A DNA stretch of 64,000 nt from the NCBI RefSeq assembly GCF_026015625.1, contig NZ_JAPDVG010000001.1, forward strand, positions 1 through 64,000. The letters are read 5' to 3'. Both the position numbers and the translations under genes were made by a program. This DNA is from Segatella copri (GTDB lineage: Bacteria > Bacteroidota > Bacteroidia > Bacteroidales > Bacteroidaceae). A model generated the notes under the pieces. It did not search any database and was not told the origin of the DNA. It worked only from the letters and a program-made list of their open reading frames with translations. Shown here piece after piece: positions 6,646 to 45,865 of the stretch (positions within the stretch are counted from its first letter, which is position 1; every line of letters starts with the position of its first letter).

Positions 6646-8103
6646 ATGCTAGAGCAACAACAGACCATATCATTCAGTGATTATTCAAGTTTGTATGACT
6701 TGATTATCCCAAAAGACAACCTGCTCCGCCAGATTACTGACCTGGTGGACTTTCGTTTCGTATACCAGGAATTGCAGGACAAGTATTGTCATGACAATGG
6801 TCGTACAGCAGAGAGTCCTATCCGTATGTTTAAGTATCTTCTTTTAAAGGTAATCTATGACATATCGGATGTTGATGTTGTTGAACGTACTCGCTATGAT
6901 ATGTCGTTTAAGTACTTCTTGGGATTAACTCCTGAGGAGACTAATCTGATTAATCCTAGTTCCTTGACCAAATTCCGTCGACTTCGTCTGAAGGATATGG
7001 ACCTGTTGGATCTTCTTATCAAGAAGACTGTTTCTATTGCTATAGAAGCAGGTGTCCTCAAGTCTAGAACCATCATTGTTGATGCAACCCATACGCATTC
7101 TCGTTCCAACCCTATCAGTGCAGCAAAGAGTTTGGAGTATTATTGCAAGGCCGTAATCAAGGTCGTTAATTCTGTGGATGACAGCATGGAATTGCCTGAG
7201 CTTCCAAAAGAAAAGAAGTATTCTTCTATCATGACTGCAGCCAAAACGATAGTTGCTACGGTGGAAGCTGATGCTGCAACTGCCAATATGCCTGCAGTCA
7301 AGGAGCGTCTCAATATGCTGAAAGAAACCATTTCAGACGCAGAGACCCGAGGCGTAATATCAAAAGATGCAGATGCCCGTACAGGACATAAAACAGCGCA
7401 TTCTTCATTCTTTGGCTATAAGACGCATATAGCTATGAGCGATGAGAGAATTATCACCGCAGCTACCGTCACCTCCGGCGAGAAGGGTGATGGACAGCAA
7501 TTGCCAGAATTGATAAAAAAGACAGAGGAAGCAGGAATGGAAGTTGATTCCATAGTAGCAGATAAGGCATATTCCAGCAAGGAGAATCTCAAAATGGCAA
7601 AGGAAAACAATATGCGCCTCTCTGCTCGTTTAAGCTCTGTAATTGACGGTAATCGAACAAACAAACTCCCTTTTGAATACAACAAGGATGCAGATCTGTA
7701 CGTCTGCCCAGCAGGGCATCTGGCGAAATGGAAAGAGATGAATTATCGCAAAAATGACAAGCGTCACAGAAACTCCAGCATTACCTATTATTTTGATGTG
7801 GACAAATGCAAGGTCTGTCCATTACGTGAAGGTTGCTACAAGGAAGGAGCCAAGACAAAAACATATGCGGTTACCATCAAATCGGATGAACAGTTGGAGC
7901 AAATCGAATATCAAAAAACAGAAGAGTTTATAAATCTTCAGAGGAAACGATACAAGATAGAAGCCAAAAACTCCGAACTTAAGAATGTCTTAGGATATGA
8001 CAGAGCCCTGTCATACGGTTTGTCGTGCATGGAAATGCAGGGAGCTTTGACTATTTTCGCTGCAAATGTGAAGAGAATCATCAAATTGATGCAAAATGCA
8101 TAA
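6646..8103 (+). CDS. IS1182-family DDE transposase
   Basis: A 485-aa transposase, full length for the family. The N-terminal part is the DUF772-type domain (SPIRMFKYLLLKVIYDISD). The catalytic triad can be read: Asp in TIIVDATHTHSR (about 147), Asp in SIVADKAYSSKEN (about 306) and Glu in KIEAKNSELKNVLGYDRALSYG (about 445). A zinc-ribbon-like CPAGH...CKVCPLREGC motif precedes the Glu. No frameshift or internal stop, so the enzyme is probably active. It cuts the ends of its own element. Confidence 0.93.
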   Translation: MLEQQQTISFSDYSSLYDLIIPKDNLLRQITDLVDFRFVYQELQDKYCHDNGRTAESPIRMFKYLLLKVIYDISDVDVVERTRYDMSFKYFLGLTPEETNLINPSSLTKFRRLRLKDMDLLDLLIKKTVSIAIEAGVLKSRTIIVDATHTHSRSNPISAAKSLEYYCKAVIKVVNSVDDSMELPELPKEKKYSSIMTAAKTIVATVEADAATANMPAVKERLNMLKETISDAETRGVISKDADARTGHKTAHSSFFGYKTHIAMSDERIITAATVTSGEKGDGQQLPELIKKTEEAGMEVDSIVADKAYSSKENLKMAKENNMRLSARLSSVIDGNRTNKLPFEYNKDADLYVCPAGHLAKWKEMNYRKNDKRHRNSSITYYFDVDKCKVCPLREGCYKEGAKTKTYAVTIKSDEQLEQIEYQKTEEFINLQRKRYKIEAKNSELKNVLGYDRALSYGLSCMEMQGALTIFAANVKRIIKLMQNA

Positions 8104-39340: not shown

Positions 39341-40665
39341 CATTAGTGTCCAATAAAAATTGGACACGTTAATTAATTAATCAAATAGTCCCTTAAAAAG
39401 GGGATAATCGAGTTCTTTGACATCGTTGAAAATAGTCTTATCAAATAGATCTCTTAGGTGGGTTTTGTCCGTCAATGAAATGCTTAGAATCTGCAAAACT
39501 TCATATGTCGAGCGTTTCAGTTGCATATCATGGTGCACAATAGCCACGAGACAATAAGTGATAATGGCAACACTAATCTGTATGCGTACAGCATTCTTCG
39601 TTGTGCCCCAGAATCTCTTTATCTTAAGATGCTGCTTTAGCCATTTGAAAAATAGCTCAACCAACCATCTTTTTTTATATAGATTCGCGACATCCAACGC
39701 TGAAAGATGCTTTGCATTCGTCAGAAAAGTAAACTCACGATCATCTTCTTCATCGTAGTATCGAATGAATCTGAATGATTCAGGATACTTCTTTTCGGAA
39801 AGATATCCTGTTAGTTTTACTTCAGCATCAGTTAGTACATTCTTTGGCATTCTTCGCTTCCATTTTACCATTTTGTACTTCAAGTTCGTTTTGGCTCTGA
39901 CTACATAGTAGGAACCTGTAAGATGAATCTTATAAAGTTCCTTGAAAGTATCATAAGCCCTATCGAAAATGTAGTAACTGTTTGGTTCATACGTAATTGA
40001 AGACATTGCTGTAGAATCATGCTTTGATGCTGTGGTCACAGTATAGAAAGCTGGAACTTGTGCTTCTACGTCATATAAGACATGTGCTTTAACTCCTCCT
40101 TTCTTACTTCTGAACTTTGCCCATGGAAAAGTTGCAAGACACAACGGAATAGTTGTCGAATCAAAAGCATACTTCTTTCCTGGTATATTCAAAATGTTGG
40201 TTTCTCGCTTTTTGCAAGCTTCCTTCATCATATAGAATGCAAAGTCTTCGAAAATCCTGTAATCACGAGTCTGATTGGCATAAGCAAGAGTTGCTTTTAC
40301 GATAGTATTACGTCCAAGTCCCAGATGATATTGCTTAGCTCGATGAGCTTCCAATGCAACTATCAAGTCACGTAAACTCTCACGATTGCTCAGTTGCCCA
40401 AACATCATTGCAAGAAGCTGGTTCCAGCAAGTGAAGTGTTTCACGTATCGGTTGCCATCATACTTGCGTACGTAGTTGTTGAACTGAGTTCTATTCAGAA
40501 ATGCAGTAAGTTGAGCGAAAACATATTTGTCTTGAAACATAGTAGCCAATTCTTTTTGGCTGCAAAGTTACAAAATCAAGTCCGTTTCATTGCAAAATAC
40601 TGCATAAAAGACTATAATTCAACTGTTTCAAAGATCGAATTGCCCTTTTTTATTGGACAGTAGTG
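39341..40665 (-). mobile_element. IS4-family insertion sequence (intact copy A)
   Basis: 1325 bp with terminal inverted repeats CATTAGTGTCCAATAAAAA (left) and CACTACTGTCCAATAAAAA (right, read inward), and a 9-bp target duplication ATTGAAAGT (39332-39340 and 40666-40674). One intact transposase gene. Confidence 0.9.
39377..40549 (-). CDS. IS4-family DDE transposase
   Basis: A 390-aa transposase. N-terminal DUF4372-like part (FAQLTAFLNRTQFNNYVRKY), catalytic Asp in KYAFDSTTIPLCL, second Asp in YIFDRAYDTFKELY and the Glu in the YREK-like region KKRWLVELFFKWLKQHLKIK. Full length with no frameshift. A -7 box TAACTTTG lies at 40563-40570 on the minus strand, 14 nt before the start. Confidence 0.94.
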   Translation of the reverse strand: MATMFQDKYVFAQLTAFLNRTQFNNYVRKYDGNRYVKHFTCWNQLLAMMFGQLSNRESLRDLIVALEAHRAKQYHLGLGRNTIVKATLAYANQTRDYRIFEDFAFYMMKEACKKRETNILNIPGKKYAFDSTTIPLCLATFPWAKFRSKKGGVKAHVLYDVEAQVPAFYTVTTASKHDSTAMSSITYEPNSYYIFDRAYDTFKELYKIHLTGSYYVVRAKTNLKYKMVKWKRRMPKNVLTDAEVKLTGYLSEKKYPESFRFIRYYDEEDDREFTFLTNAKHLSALDVANLYKKRWLVELFFKWLKQHLKIKRFWGTTKNAVRIQISVAIITYCLVAIVHHDMQLKRSTYEVLQILSISLTDKTHLRDLFDKTIFNDVKELDYPLFKGLFD

Positions 40666-40811: not shown

Positions 40812-40846
40812 ATGACTCAGTTCCTCAGTTCCTCAGTTTTTCTCTG
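40812..40846. repeat. Inverted arm of a 9-bp minisatellite (left)
   Basis: ACTCAGTTCCTCAGTTCC and onward: the complement of the (ACTGAGGAA)n repeat at 45826-45865, about 60 bp outside the other end of IS4 copy B. Confidence 0.8.
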
Positions 40847-40921
40847 ACCCTTCACTTTTTCCTTTATTTAGAAGTTTATTATATATATATATAATAATAT
40901 ATAATATCACTGCTGTCCCGT

Positions 40922-41204
40922 TTAGAAATCATCGGGCCTGAAAAGGCTAGGATATAGCCAATCCTCCGTCTCTTCTGTTGGAACAGCTTTGTTAAACAAT
41001 TCATTTAAAGGAGTCTTGTCCGTAAGGAATAGACCCACGTTCTTTGAAATAGTGTGTAGCGATTGATCTATGTGCATCACTTTCTTTGCATAAGCTAAAA
41101 GCAAGTATGTGCATATGGCAATCCAGATTTGCAGATATATGGCATTCTCGGAAGTTCCATAAAAGGATTTGATGTGAAGGTGTTGCTTAATCCATTTAAA
41201 GTAA
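40922..41204 (-). pseudogene. C-terminal part of the split IS4 transposase
   Basis: Minus-strand reading continues the transposase from YFKWIKQHLHIKSFYGTS through IAICTYLLLAYAKKVM to DWLYPSLFRPDDF. The break falls in the VELYF/KWIKQ motif right after the catalytic Glu. The N-terminal part is at 44732-45634. Confidence 0.88.
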
Positions 41205-41252
41205 TTATGTAAAGCTTCTCATAATTACTTTTATGACAAGAATATCATTATG
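41198..41252. repeat. Left end of the RIT element
   Basis: A 28-bp terminal repeat at 41225-41252 (starting TTACTTTTATGACAAGAATA) matches the right end in 27 of 28 positions. A palindrome AAAGTAATTATG...CATAATTACTTT spans 41198-41231 and joins it to the target core. Confidence 0.85.
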
Positions 41253-41385
41253 TCAAGTTAGACAGATTTGACCTGTGAAAAATTGTTGATTATATGAATT
41301 TTACAGCAAAAACTTATCATAAATACTTCTCATAACGTTATATTACAGTATAGGGCATAAGCCCCAAAACTAAATATTATATATT

Positions 41386-42621
41386 ATGCAAGAAGTAAAG
41401 ATTCAAGTCCTAATGGATCGATGCATCAAGTACTTTGAAGACCATTGTTACACAGAGAATAGAATATCTGTGTATAAATGTCTATGGCGTAAAGGCATCG
41501 TCCACTACATGTCGGCTCACGACATTGAGAATTATTCCCCTTCTATTGGTGAAGAGTTCCTGTCAACCTGTCATCATTATGGTGAGATTCGTCACCAGGA
41601 GCGTGAAATGATTCGCAGTATTCAAGTCCTTGACGATATGCTTTCGTTAGGGCTTATACGTAAGCGTTGTTTCACTCCTGTTTTCCATACCCTCGATGGG
41701 AAGATTGGCATGGAGATGGAAAAACTCATCATCCATCTTACTTCTCTTCGTAGAAGTCTGGTGACTATAAATGACTATCGTTTGTATCTAAGCGAGTTCT
41801 TAACTCATCTCAATCTCAGTGGTGTCAACAGTGTGTCCGAGATTGCGGATAAACACATCTTGTCGTTTGTCTCGTCCCATCCGACCAACAAGGTAAACAT
41901 AGTTTCTGCCCTGCGTGTCCTCTTTCGTTTCTGGAAAGCGGAGCATATTGTAGATGGAAGGTTTGATGGTCTGTTTGACACATATAAGCTGCGCAAGAAA
42001 GAGCGTATTCCTTCGTTTTACACAGCAGCAGAGGTAAATATAGTAGAGAACTCCGTGAATAGAAGCAGCGGCGTTGGCAAGAGAAACTATGCAATGTTAT
42101 TACTTGCATCACGTTTGGGGTTGCGAGCTTCGGACATAGCCAACCTACAGTTCTCTAATATAGACTGGGACAACAATGTACTAACCCTTGTGATGCATAA
42201 GACCGGAAAGGTCATAGAGTTGCCATTGCTTGCGGATGTTGGTAATGCCATCATAGATTACTTGCAGCATGGAAGACCTCAGACAGTTTCACAGAATGTA
42301 TTTCTTTCTTGCAAGGCACCTTATGTGCCAGCAACCAAAAGTATGGTATGCTCTGCAATAAACAACATCATCTGTAAATCCGGAATAGATGTATCGGCCA
42401 AGCATCATGGTCCACATTCTCTACGTCATTCTCTTGCAAGCGTCATGCTTGAGAAAGGCACGACGTTACCTGTCATATCCGAATCGCTAGGGCATCGCAG
42501 TACGGAAACAACTCTCACTTATCTTAAGATTGACATAAAGTCTTTGATAGAGTGTGCCATTCCTGTACCGCCAGTTCCAGATGCCTTTTACAAACAGAGA
42601 GGAGGTGCGTTCTATGGCTGA
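41386..42621 (+). CDS. ritA: RIT tyrosine recombinase A
   Basis: A 411-aa tyrosine recombinase, first of the trio. Catalytic set: Arg in LASRLGLRASDIANL, Lys in LVMHKTGKVIELPL, HxxR in HGPHSLRHSLASVM and Tyr in LGHRSTETTLTYLKID. The N-terminal part is a SAM-like core-binding domain. It overlaps the next gene by 8 nt, so the three are translated together. It would cut and rejoin the element ends with its partners. Confidence 0.92.
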   Translation: MQEVKIQVLMDRCIKYFEDHCYTENRISVYKCLWRKGIVHYMSAHDIENYSPSIGEEFLSTCHHYGEIRHQEREMIRSIQVLDDMLSLGLIRKRCFTPVFHTLDGKIGMEMEKLIIHLTSLRRSLVTINDYRLYLSEFLTHLNLSGVNSVSEIADKHILSFVSSHPTNKVNIVSALRVLFRFWKAEHIVDGRFDGLFDTYKLRKKERIPSFYTAAEVNIVENSVNRSSGVGKRNYAMLLLASRLGLRASDIANLQFSNIDWDNNVLTLVMHKTGKVIELPLLADVGNAIIDYLQHGRPQTVSQNVFLSCKAPYVPATKSMVCSAINNIICKSGIDVSAKHHGPHSLRHSLASVMLEKGTTLPVISESLGHRSTETTLTYLKIDIKSLIECAIPVPPVPDAFYKQRGGAFYG

Positions 42622-43618
42622 GCAATTTAAATATTCCAGCGTGTTAGCCTCATATATGAATCATCTTCTTGACATTAAAATATCTGCAGGAATCAGTGCG
42701 TTGCGTACCAGATGGATATTGAAAGAGATTGACGACTTTGCCAATGCAGAGTGCCTAAAGGATCCTCATATCAAAGAGGTGTTCTTCAAAAAGTGGAGAG
42801 CTACACGTGTGGCGGACTGTGACAGAACTTTATATTCCAAATGTTCCGTATGGTGTCAATTGACAAGACTGATGTGCAGGTGTGGCTGTGTATGCTTCAT
42901 TCCACGAATGCCCAAGCAACCGAAGTCTGATTTTACTCCGTATATATTCACAAAGGAGCAGATTGGCGCAATCTTTTCTGCAGCGGACGAATATAGACTA
43001 TATGACATACGCATGGGTACAGCTCTCATAGCCATGCCAGCTCTTCTTCGTTTACTATATAGTACAGGAATGCGTATATCTGAGGCTCTTTCCATCCGCA
43101 ACAAACATGTTCATCTGGATGAAGGTTACATTCGCTTAGATAAAACCAAGAACGGAAGTGAAAGGATCGTACCTTTATGTGAGTCGATGAAGACGGTACT
43201 TACATCTTATATGGAGTATAGAAACAATATGCCCATCAAAGACATAGCTGCAGGAAATGGTTTTTTGTTTGTAAAATCGGACGGGACTAGCATCAAGGCT
43301 AATAGTGTATATCAGCATCTGCGCAAATTGCTGGACACATGCGGAATTCCCCATAAGGGGAATCATCATGGACCACGCGTTCACGACCTGCGACATACGA
43401 ATGCAGTACATGCTCTTGTACAGATGGGGCACAAAGGAATGGACTTGTATGCCAGTTTGCCAATTCTCTCAACATGCCTGGGACATCACTCGCTGAAAGC
43501 GACAGAGCAGTATGTTCGCCTCACATGCAACATGTATCCAGAATTGGAAGAGCAATGTTCTGAAATCAACGCTTTTGTCTATCCAAAGATATGTAAAGCC
43601 TATGACTACGACGACTGA
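42614..43618 (+). CDS. ritB: RIT tyrosine recombinase B
   Basis: A 334-aa tyrosine recombinase with Arg in LLYSTGMRISEALSI, Lys in LDKTKNGSERIVPL, HxxR in GPRVHDLRHTNAVHAL and Tyr in LGHHSLKATEQYVRLT. The start at 42614 (MAEQFKYSS) overlaps the ritA stop by 8 nt; an earlier in-frame ATG at 42554 would add 20 residues inside ritA. All active-site residues are present. Confidence 0.92.
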   Translation: MAEQFKYSSVLASYMNHLLDIKISAGISALRTRWILKEIDDFANAECLKDPHIKEVFFKKWRATRVADCDRTLYSKCSVWCQLTRLMCRCGCVCFIPRMPKQPKSDFTPYIFTKEQIGAIFSAADEYRLYDIRMGTALIAMPALLRLLYSTGMRISEALSIRNKHVHLDEGYIRLDKTKNGSERIVPLCESMKTVLTSYMEYRNNMPIKDIAAGNGFLFVKSDGTSIKANSVYQHLRKLLDTCGIPHKGNHHGPRVHDLRHTNAVHALVQMGHKGMDLYASLPILSTCLGHHSLKATEQYVRLTCNMYPELEEQCSEINAFVYPKICKAYDYDD

Positions 43619-44633
43619 CTTTGCCAAACATTTAAGCCGCTTTCTGGTAGAATACCTGCCTCATGAGCGTAATGTAAGCCCTAACACCATATCCTCCTAT
43701 AGAGATGCATTTGTACAATTTATTGACTTCATGAAAGATATTAAAGGAATCACAGTTGAAAAATTGCAATTGAAACATCTCACGAGAGTAAGTGTAACCG
43801 AGTATCTCGAATGGCTACTTAACAAGCGAAAATGCTCTGCAGCGACACGTAACTATCGGCTTGCTGCCATTCATTCTTTTTGTCATTACTTGCAATATAG
43901 CGTCATAGAAATGATAGAAGAATGGCAAAAGATCCTAACTATTAAAGCCATAAAAACATCAGGGACAACACTTAACTACCTGACAATAGAAGGTATCAAG
44001 TTGTTGCTGGCTCAGCCTGATACATCAACTTGGAGAGGCCGAAGAAATCTCGCTTTACTCTCACTAATGTATGATACGGGAGCAAGAGTCTCTGAAATAG
44101 CAGATCTTACTGTGGATAGTGTGCGCATAACCCATGAGCCATATACCATACGTCTGTTCGGAAAAGGACGCAAAGCACGAATAGTACCGCTTGTAAAGGA
44201 ACAGGTGTCAATTCTATGTGAATATATGGAAGAGAATCATCTTAACGATTGCAACAAAGCTGCGTCTCCACTTTTCTATAATGGCAGAAATGAAAAGCTA
44301 ACGCGTGAGGGTATCACATACATTCTTTGTACTTATGCAAACATGGCAAGGAAGGTGTCTCCAGAACTTATTCCGCAAAGGATTAGTTGTCACTCTATAC
44401 GTCATAGTCGAGCTATGCATCTTCTACAGGCTGGAGTCAACCTTATTTATATTAGAGATTTGCTAGGACATGTCTCTATTCAAACAACGGACATTTATGC
44501 TCGTGCAGACTCTAAAGCAAAACGTGAGGCGTTCGAAAAGGCGTATACAGATCTCACACCTAACCGAGAGGCTGATAAATCTTGGGAAAACAATAAAAAT
44601 CTCAGAGATTGGCTCAGAGGTCTGAAGAAATAG
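43602..44633 (+). CDS. ritC: RIT tyrosine recombinase C
   Basis: A 343-aa tyrosine recombinase. Arg in LMYDTGARVSEIADL, Lys in LFGKGRKARIVPL, HxxR in SCHSIRHSRAMHLL and Tyr in LGHVSIQTTDIYARAD. The start at 43602 overlaps the ritB stop by 17 nt and is preferred over 43512, which lies far inside ritB. Last gene of the trio, followed within about 80 nt by the right terminal repeat. Confidence 0.92.
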   Translation: MTTTTDFAKHLSRFLVEYLPHERNVSPNTISSYRDAFVQFIDFMKDIKGITVEKLQLKHLTRVSVTEYLEWLLNKRKCSAATRNYRLAAIHSFCHYLQYSVIEMIEEWQKILTIKAIKTSGTTLNYLTIEGIKLLLAQPDTSTWRGRRNLALLSLMYDTGARVSEIADLTVDSVRITHEPYTIRLFGKGRKARIVPLVKEQVSILCEYMEENHLNDCNKAASPLFYNGRNEKLTREGITYILCTYANMARKVSPELIPQRISCHSIRHSRAMHLLQAGVNLIYIRDLLGHVSIQTTDIYARADSKAKREAFEKAYTDLTPNREADKSWENNKNLRDWLRGLKK

Positions 44634-44710
44634 TTATCATTATGAGAAGTCGAACGGAGAAGCATTCTCCTAAAGTTCTGATCTTCAATAATACTTTTCC
44701 ATTCACTTCT

Positions 44711-44738
44711 CATAATGTTATTCTTGTCATAAAAGTAA
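44711..44738. repeat. Right terminal inverted repeat of the RIT element
   Basis: Complement of 41225-41252 with one mismatch. The 10-mer CTTCTCATAA borders it (44706-44715) and recurs at 41215-41224, 41326-41335 and, inverted, at 44640-44649. Confidence 0.88.
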
Positions 44739-45634
44739 AGTTCCACGTTCCATCTTTCCCTATATAATTCAGATATGGTAAGCGCTTCATATTCCATGTT
44801 GTTTGTGAGAAACCTATACACCTTACTTGTTGCATAGTCCTCATAGGTTACCATTCTAAGTTCTTCAGGATACCATTTGGCAGTATGTAGTCCTGTTAAT
44901 TTGATACGTTCATCAGAAATGATACCAGTACTCTTGTCAACTTCGGCTTCTGATACAACTTCAAAAAGCATGTTATCTTTTGCCCTAGTAACAAAGAATG
45001 CATTCTTCTTAGTTATCAACTTGAAGAGTCTGTTGAAATCTACATATCCTCTGTCCATCAAATAGATAGCAGAAGGTTCTATGTAGAGATCATCAAGAGC
45101 TTTTACATCATTAACCGATGCAGAAGTCAAATAAACTGAGACTGGAAGATTTCCTCGCAAATCGACTAATGTGTGCATTTTGATGCCACCTTTGTTTTTG
45201 CGATACTTTGCCCAAGGACATAATTTGAGACACAGACTTATAGTACTGCTATCAAAAGCATATACCATGTTGTCTAGGTCTAATCTGAACTTGTCTTTGA
45301 CATAAAGAGGACGTACTTTTTTCAAAAGAACGTCTGCAAAATCTTTATAGATATGCCAATCTCGCTTCTCGTTAGCTTTTGCTAGAGTATTACGTGGTAC
45401 AGCATAACTAATACCACAATGGTAAAGTTTGCTGGAGAGTGCCGTAAGGCAGTTTTCTATATCTCGAAGACTATCACGACCTGTTAATTGAGCATAGCTC
45501 ATTACTAGGAATTGGTCTTTGCAAGAGAAGTTTCTTGCTCTGTAGTTTCCCTTATAACGGTCTACACAAGTTTTGAAATCACGTTCTGGTATAAGTGACA
45601 TAATCTGAGAGAATATAGTTTTGCCTTTGTTCAT
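44732..45634 (-). pseudogene. N-terminal part of the split IS4 transposase
   Basis: From MNKGKTIFSQIMSLIPERDF to ERWNVELYF, with catalytic Asp in VYAFDSSTISLCLKL and DRGYVDF and the Glu just before the break. The reading frame then runs about 80 codons into the RIT element (to 44495), giving a chimeric tail with no IS4 similarity. A -7 box TATCTTTG lies at 45660-45667 (minus). Confidence 0.9.
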
Positions 45635-45825
45635 CGCACACGTATTTTAAATATGCGTGCAAAGATACAAAATCAAATCGAATACACTATAAAAAGTCCG
45701 TAAACTTTTGAGTATTAATAACTTATTTAATAACCGTCTCGTTTTAACGGGACACTAGTGATATAATATATAACAATTTAAAACAACTTTGAACTATAAG
45801 GGCTATATACCCCCTAGGAAAAAAC

Positions 45826-45865
45826 TGAGGAACTGAGGAACTGAGGAACTGAGGAACTGAGCAAG
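45826..45865. repeat. 9-bp minisatellite (ACTGAGGAA)n, right arm
   Basis: Four tandem copies of ACTGAGGAA. It is the inverted counterpart of 40812-40846. Confidence 0.85.

Follow-up and report, generated by a model that had tools for sequence, protein, structure and literature searches.

Results

A RIT element splits the transposase gene of an IS4-type insertion sequence

We analysed a 64,000-nucleotide stretch of Segatella copri DNA (the window; contig NZ_JAPDVG010000001.1, positions 1 to 64,000), in which a RIT element, carrying three tyrosine recombinase genes between inverted ends, lies inside the transposase gene of an IS4-type insertion sequence (IS). The host IS and the recombinase genes are laid out as follows.

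40899..40907, no strand: left target duplication of the IS, 9 bp, ATATAATAT, read directly and by comparison with the IS-free locus in the genome G001
40908..45760, minus strand: IS4-type IS including the nested RIT, ends CACT...AGTG, by direct reading and by NCBIfam NF033592 on the N-terminal half
40922..41204, minus strand: split IS4 transposase gene, C-terminal portion (YFKWIKQ...RPDDF)
41386..42621, plus strand: ritA, tyrosine recombinase, 411 amino acids
42614..43618, plus strand: ritB, tyrosine recombinase, 334 amino acids
43602..44633, plus strand: ritC, tyrosine recombinase, 343 amino acids; best solved-structure sequence matches XerD, then Xer-like recombinases
44739..45634, minus strand: split transposase gene, N-terminal portion through WNVEL, with the catalytic Glu codon at 44741-44743
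45761..45769, no strand: right target duplication of the IS, 9 bp, read directly

The genes ritA, ritB and ritC are adjacent, co-directional and complete, as in a RIT element. All three proteins carry the R, HxxR, H and Y motifs in this order and match PF00589, in agreement with a preliminary description of this DNA that had proposed three complete tyrosine recombinases with overlapping frames, nested in an IS4 transposase gene; the nesting was likewise borne out (IS, 40908-45760; trio, 41386-44633). The frames overlap by 8 bp (ritA/ritB) and 17 bp (ritB/ritC), both values depending on the chosen starts; overlaps in described RITs measure 4-8 bp (PMC3414803). Identity to the RIT proteins of Cupriavidus pHG1 is 28% for RitA, 30% for RitB and 43% for RitC. 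Between the element ends there is no same-strand gene of at least 80 amino acids beyond the trio, and hence no counterpart of the ginD and cargo genes of GInt islands. No integron integrase model came anywhere near its cutoff, in an analysis that did not extend to attI or cassettes. In kind, the window element is an ordinary RIT, inserted in the transposase gene of an IS4-type IS. Searches with the IS plus RIT DNA gave zero matches in plasmids (near mode) and phages (distant mode), and single-protein scans found one locus in genome contigs and none in viral contigs.

The N-terminal half of the transposase scored 211 bits against NF033592 (cutoff 115), which assigns it to the IS4 family, and the host IS has the terminal inverted repeats and direct duplication of that family; the 9-bp duplication reported earlier was read directly at both IS ends. 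The nearest compared genome, G001, has 40% of sampled words in common with the window. It contains the homologous locus without the split IS and without the neighbouring IS4 copy, the exact edge of the duplication being ambiguous there because the site falls within a TA-rich run. Elsewhere G001 contains an unsplit IS, found in this one of the 100 relatives searched at E 1e-100, which is 99-100% identical in the parts matching the long halves and has an internal deletion of its own. This IS carries the core once and reads VELYF-KWIKQ across the insertion point, precisely the joined sequence that had been predicted. Because G001 has both an IS-free locus and an unsplit IS elsewhere, the nesting order is locus, then IS, then RIT.

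Among the 120 N-half homologues listed, of 7045 passing the E limit, VELYFKWIKQH occurs in 11 and VELFFKWIKQH in 78, while 23 are split (22 in the VELYFYDKN form, one in the VELFF form) and 8 matched no expression. One of the 22 VELYFYDKN proteins (P0002, without a source) is listed as the window's own. With 22 such proteins among the 120 listed, the IS::RIT composite would be either widespread or carried by one common lineage.

The two ends of the element are asymmetric

The RIT spans 41205-44732 (3528 bp) and has the size, inverted ends and palindrome of a RIT element. Its inverted ends, 34 nt long and 91% complementary, consist of 10-bp arms with the form TTATGNNAAG, which flank 6-bp spacers.

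41199..41204, no strand: 6-bp spacer/core AAGTAA of the extended end; one copy only in the empty site
41205..41224, no strand: palindromic centre of inverted arms X (TTATGTAAAG) and X' (CTTCTCATAA), at this end only
41225..41230, no strand: inner 6-bp spacer TTACTT, the outer spacer in reverse complement; presumed unused core
41231..41240, plus strand: terminal arm A (TTATGACAAG), ritA side
44723..44732, minus strand: terminal arm A' (CTTGTCATAA), ritC side, short end
44733..44738, no strand: 6-bp spacer/core AAGTAA of the short end

The short (right) end runs arm, spacer AAGTAA, target; the extended (left) end runs target, AAGTAA, two inverted arms forming the palindrome, TTACTT, arm. Of the plain 28-bp inverted ends described previously, the inversion stands but the symmetry does not, since the left end has 26 bp more than the right (two inverted 10-bp arms and a 6-bp spacer). 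The 7-bp core AAAGTAA has to be shortened to the 6 bp AAGTAA, the seventh base being an arm base that matches the target by chance. Similarly, the split does lie at the catalytic Glu codon, but the insertion begins two bases past the codon rather than right after it. The extended-end pattern, with at most three mismatches, gave a mean of 0.00 chance matches over 100 shuffles of the window.

Related elements lie in one codon register of DDE transposases

The extended-end pattern had 17 hits in 15 of 398 genus genomes, with 0 for the reversed control. Eleven hits lie in the catalytic-Glu motif of DDE transposases, two in other genes and four in unnamed ones (L015, L024, L033, L045). The family set yielded three hits in 399 genomes, two in IS4-type genes and one unnamed (L149). 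Eighteen transposase-type insertions with the window group's ends, a count described as including gene-less derivatives of ~340 bp, occupy one codon register just past the catalytic Glu (the window copy, WIN, and L002, L005, L009, L012, L018, L021, L023, L025, L026, L030, L037, L044, L046, L055, L094, L095, L099; for L009, L030 and L094 the reading covers just the Glu side). By family models, WIN, L002, L012, L044 and L055 fall in IS4_1 genes, L023 in IS4_4 and L018 in IS1634, and IS1380 is named for L005 by NCBIfam and for L005 and L046 by Pfam; except for WIN and the two Pfam matches, the named pieces are short and score below whole-protein cutoffs. The remaining transposase-type insertions were assigned by motif reading, L009 (REIE) without a family. 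The alignments show the register: the four scanned IS4_1 C-terminal halves all align from residue 1 to profile position 293, and two IS1380 C-terminal halves align from residue 2 to Pfam position 336. The insertion site falls between E and K of the Y-R-E-K signature of IS4 transposases.

On the Lys side, an alignment of 16 rows (including L149, in an unnamed gene, and omitting L001, L003, L015 and L024) is invariant at spacer position 5 and at positions 11 and 12, the latter reading AA in 16/16. The same AA occurs in the hsdR copy L001, where the motif-like DNA is antisense to the gene. The invariant AA falls in a Lys codon of the motif, so that protein constraint and DNA recognition are indistinguishable there. 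The preliminary description had named the same RIT at unrelated cores as an observation that would count against it. The 6-bp cores of the relatives do differ, but the codon register of the homologous motifs is constant; specificity therefore seems to lie in the flanking motif and not in the letters of the core.

Two explanations that dispense with repeated targeting were weighed against this register. RITs might insert widely and persist only in dispensable mobile genes, and the named targets are indeed mostly mobile or accessory genes. Selection for dispensability, however, cannot fix one base position, and the codon register is the same across IS families; together with the antisense motif-like DNA in hsdR, this makes mere survivorship very improbable. 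We give still less credence to a single old insertion spread by diversification of IS4. The 22 split VELYF proteins among the 120 listed may copy one event, but the targets span IS4, IS1380 and IS1634 genes in both orientations, the spacers differ and gene-less derivatives occur.

A circle with two cores would account for the fixed target side

The ends, spacers, empty site and codon register, all read from sequence, make it probable that the RIT inserted by site-specific tyrosine recombination into DNA coding for the IS4 catalytic-Glu motif, by way of a circle with two cores. Copies at different sites suggest that RITs are mobile. The element would move as a circle with the junction A'-sD-X-X'-sU-A, which would hold two inverted (head-to-head) core sites with independent 6-bp spacers, and either core could recombine with the target. 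With A joined to the Glu side and X to the Lys side, the palindrome would come to lie on one and the same target side, irrespective of the direction of the trio. The unused core would stay as the inner spacer, just inside the extended end, and the 6 bp of the used core could remain at one end. Target specificity, through recognition by the trio, would come mainly from the Lys-side sequence and would differ by RIT clade, each clade using DNA conserved through encoding a protein motif. Any division of roles among the three enzymes would be a guess.

The placement of the ends is consistent with this scheme. The extended end is on the Lys side in all 15 transposase-type insertions where it was seen (WIN, L002, L005, L012, L018, L021, L023, L025, L026, L037, L044, L046, L055, L095, L099), and the short end is on the Glu side in 10 of 11 sightings (WIN, L006, L009, L030, L094, L095, L099, L125, L126, L132), the eleventh being L128, a 141-bp derivative whose Glu side is unclear. 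The ritA side carries the palindrome in WIN, L005, L012, L021, L026 and L099, the ritC side in L002, L018 and L095; a palindrome at either end of the trio with a fixed target side is expected if either core can be used. The target side of the extended end is also constant in AbiEii (2/2), the DUF6956 gene (3/3), lysozyme-like genes (2/2), reverse transcriptase (2/2) and IstB (2/2). The exact circle junction was absent from viral contigs, the one collection searched for it.

Exchange might instead proceed through one strand, with the palindromic junction folding into an arm-spacer-arm hairpin. Integron attC sites, too, have paired inverted arms around a spacer and can fold on one strand; integron cassettes lack a recombinase, and the RIT site instead lies at the element's own ends. 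The predicted fold of a 90-nt stretch of one circle-junction strand has 36 base pairs and a 10-nt loop; its energy is -29.4 kcal/mol, whereas shuffled sequences average -4.7 (z -13.3). A single-strand route would explain why one spacer is retained. A double-stranded two-core site, however, yields identical end products, and 13 of 19 elements have an inner spacer that differs from the outer one (in two of them at one base), so the spacer stem would often be imperfect, a weak objection because attC sites tolerate an unpaired spacer. Strand bias occurs in SE elements (PMC10214605). On balance we regard the single-strand route as a minority possibility.

Paired copies and the inheritance of spacers

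Three genomes hold two RIT copies in opposite orientation with both ends readable (L102/L103, L113/L114 and L108/L109). Each pair fits a single circle, with spacers AATTTC and TTTTTC in G061, GCTACG and ATTACG in G772, and TGTCGG and GGTTGG in G715. In 6/6 comparisons the inner spacer of one copy equals, at 6/6 bases, the spacer at one or both outer ends of its partner, and the imperfect X-X' palindrome keeps one orientation relative to the genes in all three pairs. These opposite-orientation pairs are the best evidence for the putative circle.

Across 19 elements (L063, whose ends the search expression missed, was left out of the table), the two outer spacers of an element differ on average at 1.3 of 6 positions (25/19) and are identical in 6/19; inner and extended-end outer spacers are also identical in 6/19. 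Homology between element and target cores is thus common but not required. A spacer foreign to the target can persist at one end, as in L126, where the extended end would read ELMF and the short end reads ELFF. GTTCTT, at the extended end of the hsdR copy L001, also occurs as a spacer at IS4 sites, consistent with previous residence in an IS4 gene. A strict rule by which the target's 6 bp always stay at the short end fitted L102 and L113 (from sister copies) and L095, L125 and L126 (by direct reading); L108 showed the opposite and the rule was dropped.

Gene-less derivatives and unusual copies

Three elements with RIT ends and no rit gene, of 340, 341 and 340 bp (L125, L126, L132), lie in transposase motifs of three genomes, and L128 is a 141-bp gene-less version in a transposase gene. 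Such derivatives suggest that the trio can act in trans. They resemble miniature inverted-repeat transposable elements (MITEs) of a tyrosine-recombinase element.

L094 and L116 each have two short ends, both joined to 5' halves of different target copies, as if both cores had recombined with different targets; rearrangement via the spare core is possible, as is an assembly artefact for L094, a short contig. At L050:1216-1261, two palindromic centres share one spacer beside ritC.

Several observations weigh against the two-core circle or the targeting rule. Two members of the window group are in genes other than transposases, an hsdR-like gene in L001 and, judged by eye, a lysozyme-like gene in L003. 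No target was named for 4 of the 17 genus hits and 14 of 30 family loci. Neither circle nor excision nor transposition was observed. Three genome pairs underlie the proposed rule for the unused core, and their spacers fall in conserved codons, so that coincidental agreement is more probable than with random 6-mers. The end that retains the element's spacer varies, L108 being opposite to L102 and L113, and L099 and L112 ambiguous. Recombination of the spare core with a second target should leave a reciprocal product; a search of G583 did not find it, and the palindrome occurs there only once. The three spacers of the window copy are identical, so this copy has no discriminating power for the model. 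A pattern search of 18 genomes located 10 unsplit IS4 sites in only 4 of them; the target's own 6 bp is therefore uncheckable in-genome for most of the informative IS4 copies.

Other RIT clades occupy other conserved motifs

More distant RITs were found at a reverse transcriptase motif, TPQGG/VPQGG (L061, Rhodococcus; L063, Agrobacterium vitis), at the IstB Walker B sequence LLILD-DWG (L062, Bradyrhizobium; L145, Rhizobium) and inside a tyrosine recombinase, in the region of the active-site Tyr (L059, Cupriavidus pHG1). ParA is split at Walker A (L048, L057), two C-terminal halves aligning from residue 1 to position 13, and an AbiEii-type nucleotidyltransferase at a catalytic motif, before SED-D (L102, L103), with the C-terminal halves in one register at 33/34. 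Further targets are IS21 IstA before KSTVE (L117), a helicase-like gene at the DE-box (L123), ArdC (L121, L142), a glucosaminidase (L119), an amidoligase (L050, L054), a DUF7258/DUF6956 gene (L112-L114), lysozyme-like genes (L108, L109) and a strawberry-notch-like gene (L141). The targets of L054, L059, L063, L108, L112, L114, L123, L141, L142 and L145 were named by eye, from a scanned relative or from record annotation; the target pieces of L059 and L123 have no Pfam match, and L102 and the scanned lysozyme piece L109 score below Pfam cutoffs.

The family set yielded named targets at 16 of its 30 loci. Among plasmids, 7 of the 16 regions analysed (from 40 listed, with 3378 records matching) had a named target, and among viral stretches 5 of 11, or 6 of 11 if L049 counts, which has the flank of L048 and was removed by the duplicate filter. 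Loci without a named target are, in the family RitA set, L096, L097, L098, L100, L101, L104 (masked), L105, L106, L107, L111, L115, L118, L120 and L122 (L098, L105 and L122 have readable ends in an unnamed gene); among plasmid regions, L058, L060, L137, L138, L139, L140, L143, L144 and L146; and among viral stretches, L047, L051, L052, L053 and L056.

A RitC tree of 34 rows, some identical, groups copies by target, with support of 100/100 for the AbiEii group (including the masked L104), 100/100 for the lysozyme and DUF6956 group and 97/92 for the window clade with its IS4 and hsdR copies; long branches elsewhere are unsure. By a modest margin, we favour viewing RIT elements as active-site parasites: each clade would have settled in DNA kept from drifting by its coding for conserved, often catalytic, motifs of other mobile genes. 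Insertion would proceed by way of a circular form whose two cores are inverted, 6 bp would be carried over as a trace of a previous site, and gene-less derivatives of ~340 bp would arise and use the same sites.

Surroundings of the insertion sequence

A second, unsplit IS4-type transposase gene (39377-40549), with a free target VELFFKWLKQH, ends 358 bp from the split IS. Octamer repeats (AACTGAGG) lie on both sides of the IS in inverted orientation, at 40816-40841 and 45820-45864, and repeats similar to them are present at the IS-free locus in G001. A transposase-like gene of a different type, judged by eye, lies at 6646-8103.

Discussion

Like the window element, Cupriavidus and other RITs have overlapping tyrosine recombinase genes in the order A-B-C and a length of ~3.5 kb (PMC3414803, PMC2864759). 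They also share a 28-29 bp inverted repeat with an overlapping palindrome, described as not fitting the usual core and arm sites. Their insertions, too, lie in transposase genes or in radC: PMC3414803 names radC and a Tn6049-like transposase gene, and PMC2864759 names radC in two species and an IS66 tnpA. RIT mobility was undemonstrated as of 2012 (PMC3414803). The parts covered of these accounts give no crossover, whereas here arms, 6-bp spacers and target register are resolved.

Exchange of 6 bp has been described in SE and GInt elements (PMC10214605, PMC5385486). GInt islands resemble RITs in having three recombinase-type genes, a 6-nt staggered exchange, a spacer that changes between circle and target, and conserved target genes (ssb); unlike RITs, they have four essential genes including ginD and reside on genomic islands, and the covered text contains neither 'palindrom-' nor 'hairpin' (PMC5385486). 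SE elements and Tn554 share with RITs a 6-bp footprint from the previous site and target specificity, and Tn554 imperfect terminal inverted repeats; they differ in gene sets, and the parts covered of PMC10214605 describe no double-core junction. Our literature search, over partly covered sources, found no motif-level target rule or double-core junction for RITs; earlier recognition is possible, and we regard the novelty of the target rule as provisional.

RITs have been known for over a decade yet are little studied, and the account of their target choice is now clear and testable: the comparison places the crossover at the level of single bases and proposes a circle structure and a target rule, open to testing by polymerase chain reaction. 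For those in search of new integrases, recombinase trios that are specific to a clade and differ in target may be of interest. More generally, our analysis suggests a strategy in which an element chooses targets whose DNA the function of another gene holds constant, while disabling a rival mobile element, with a presumed benefit to itself.

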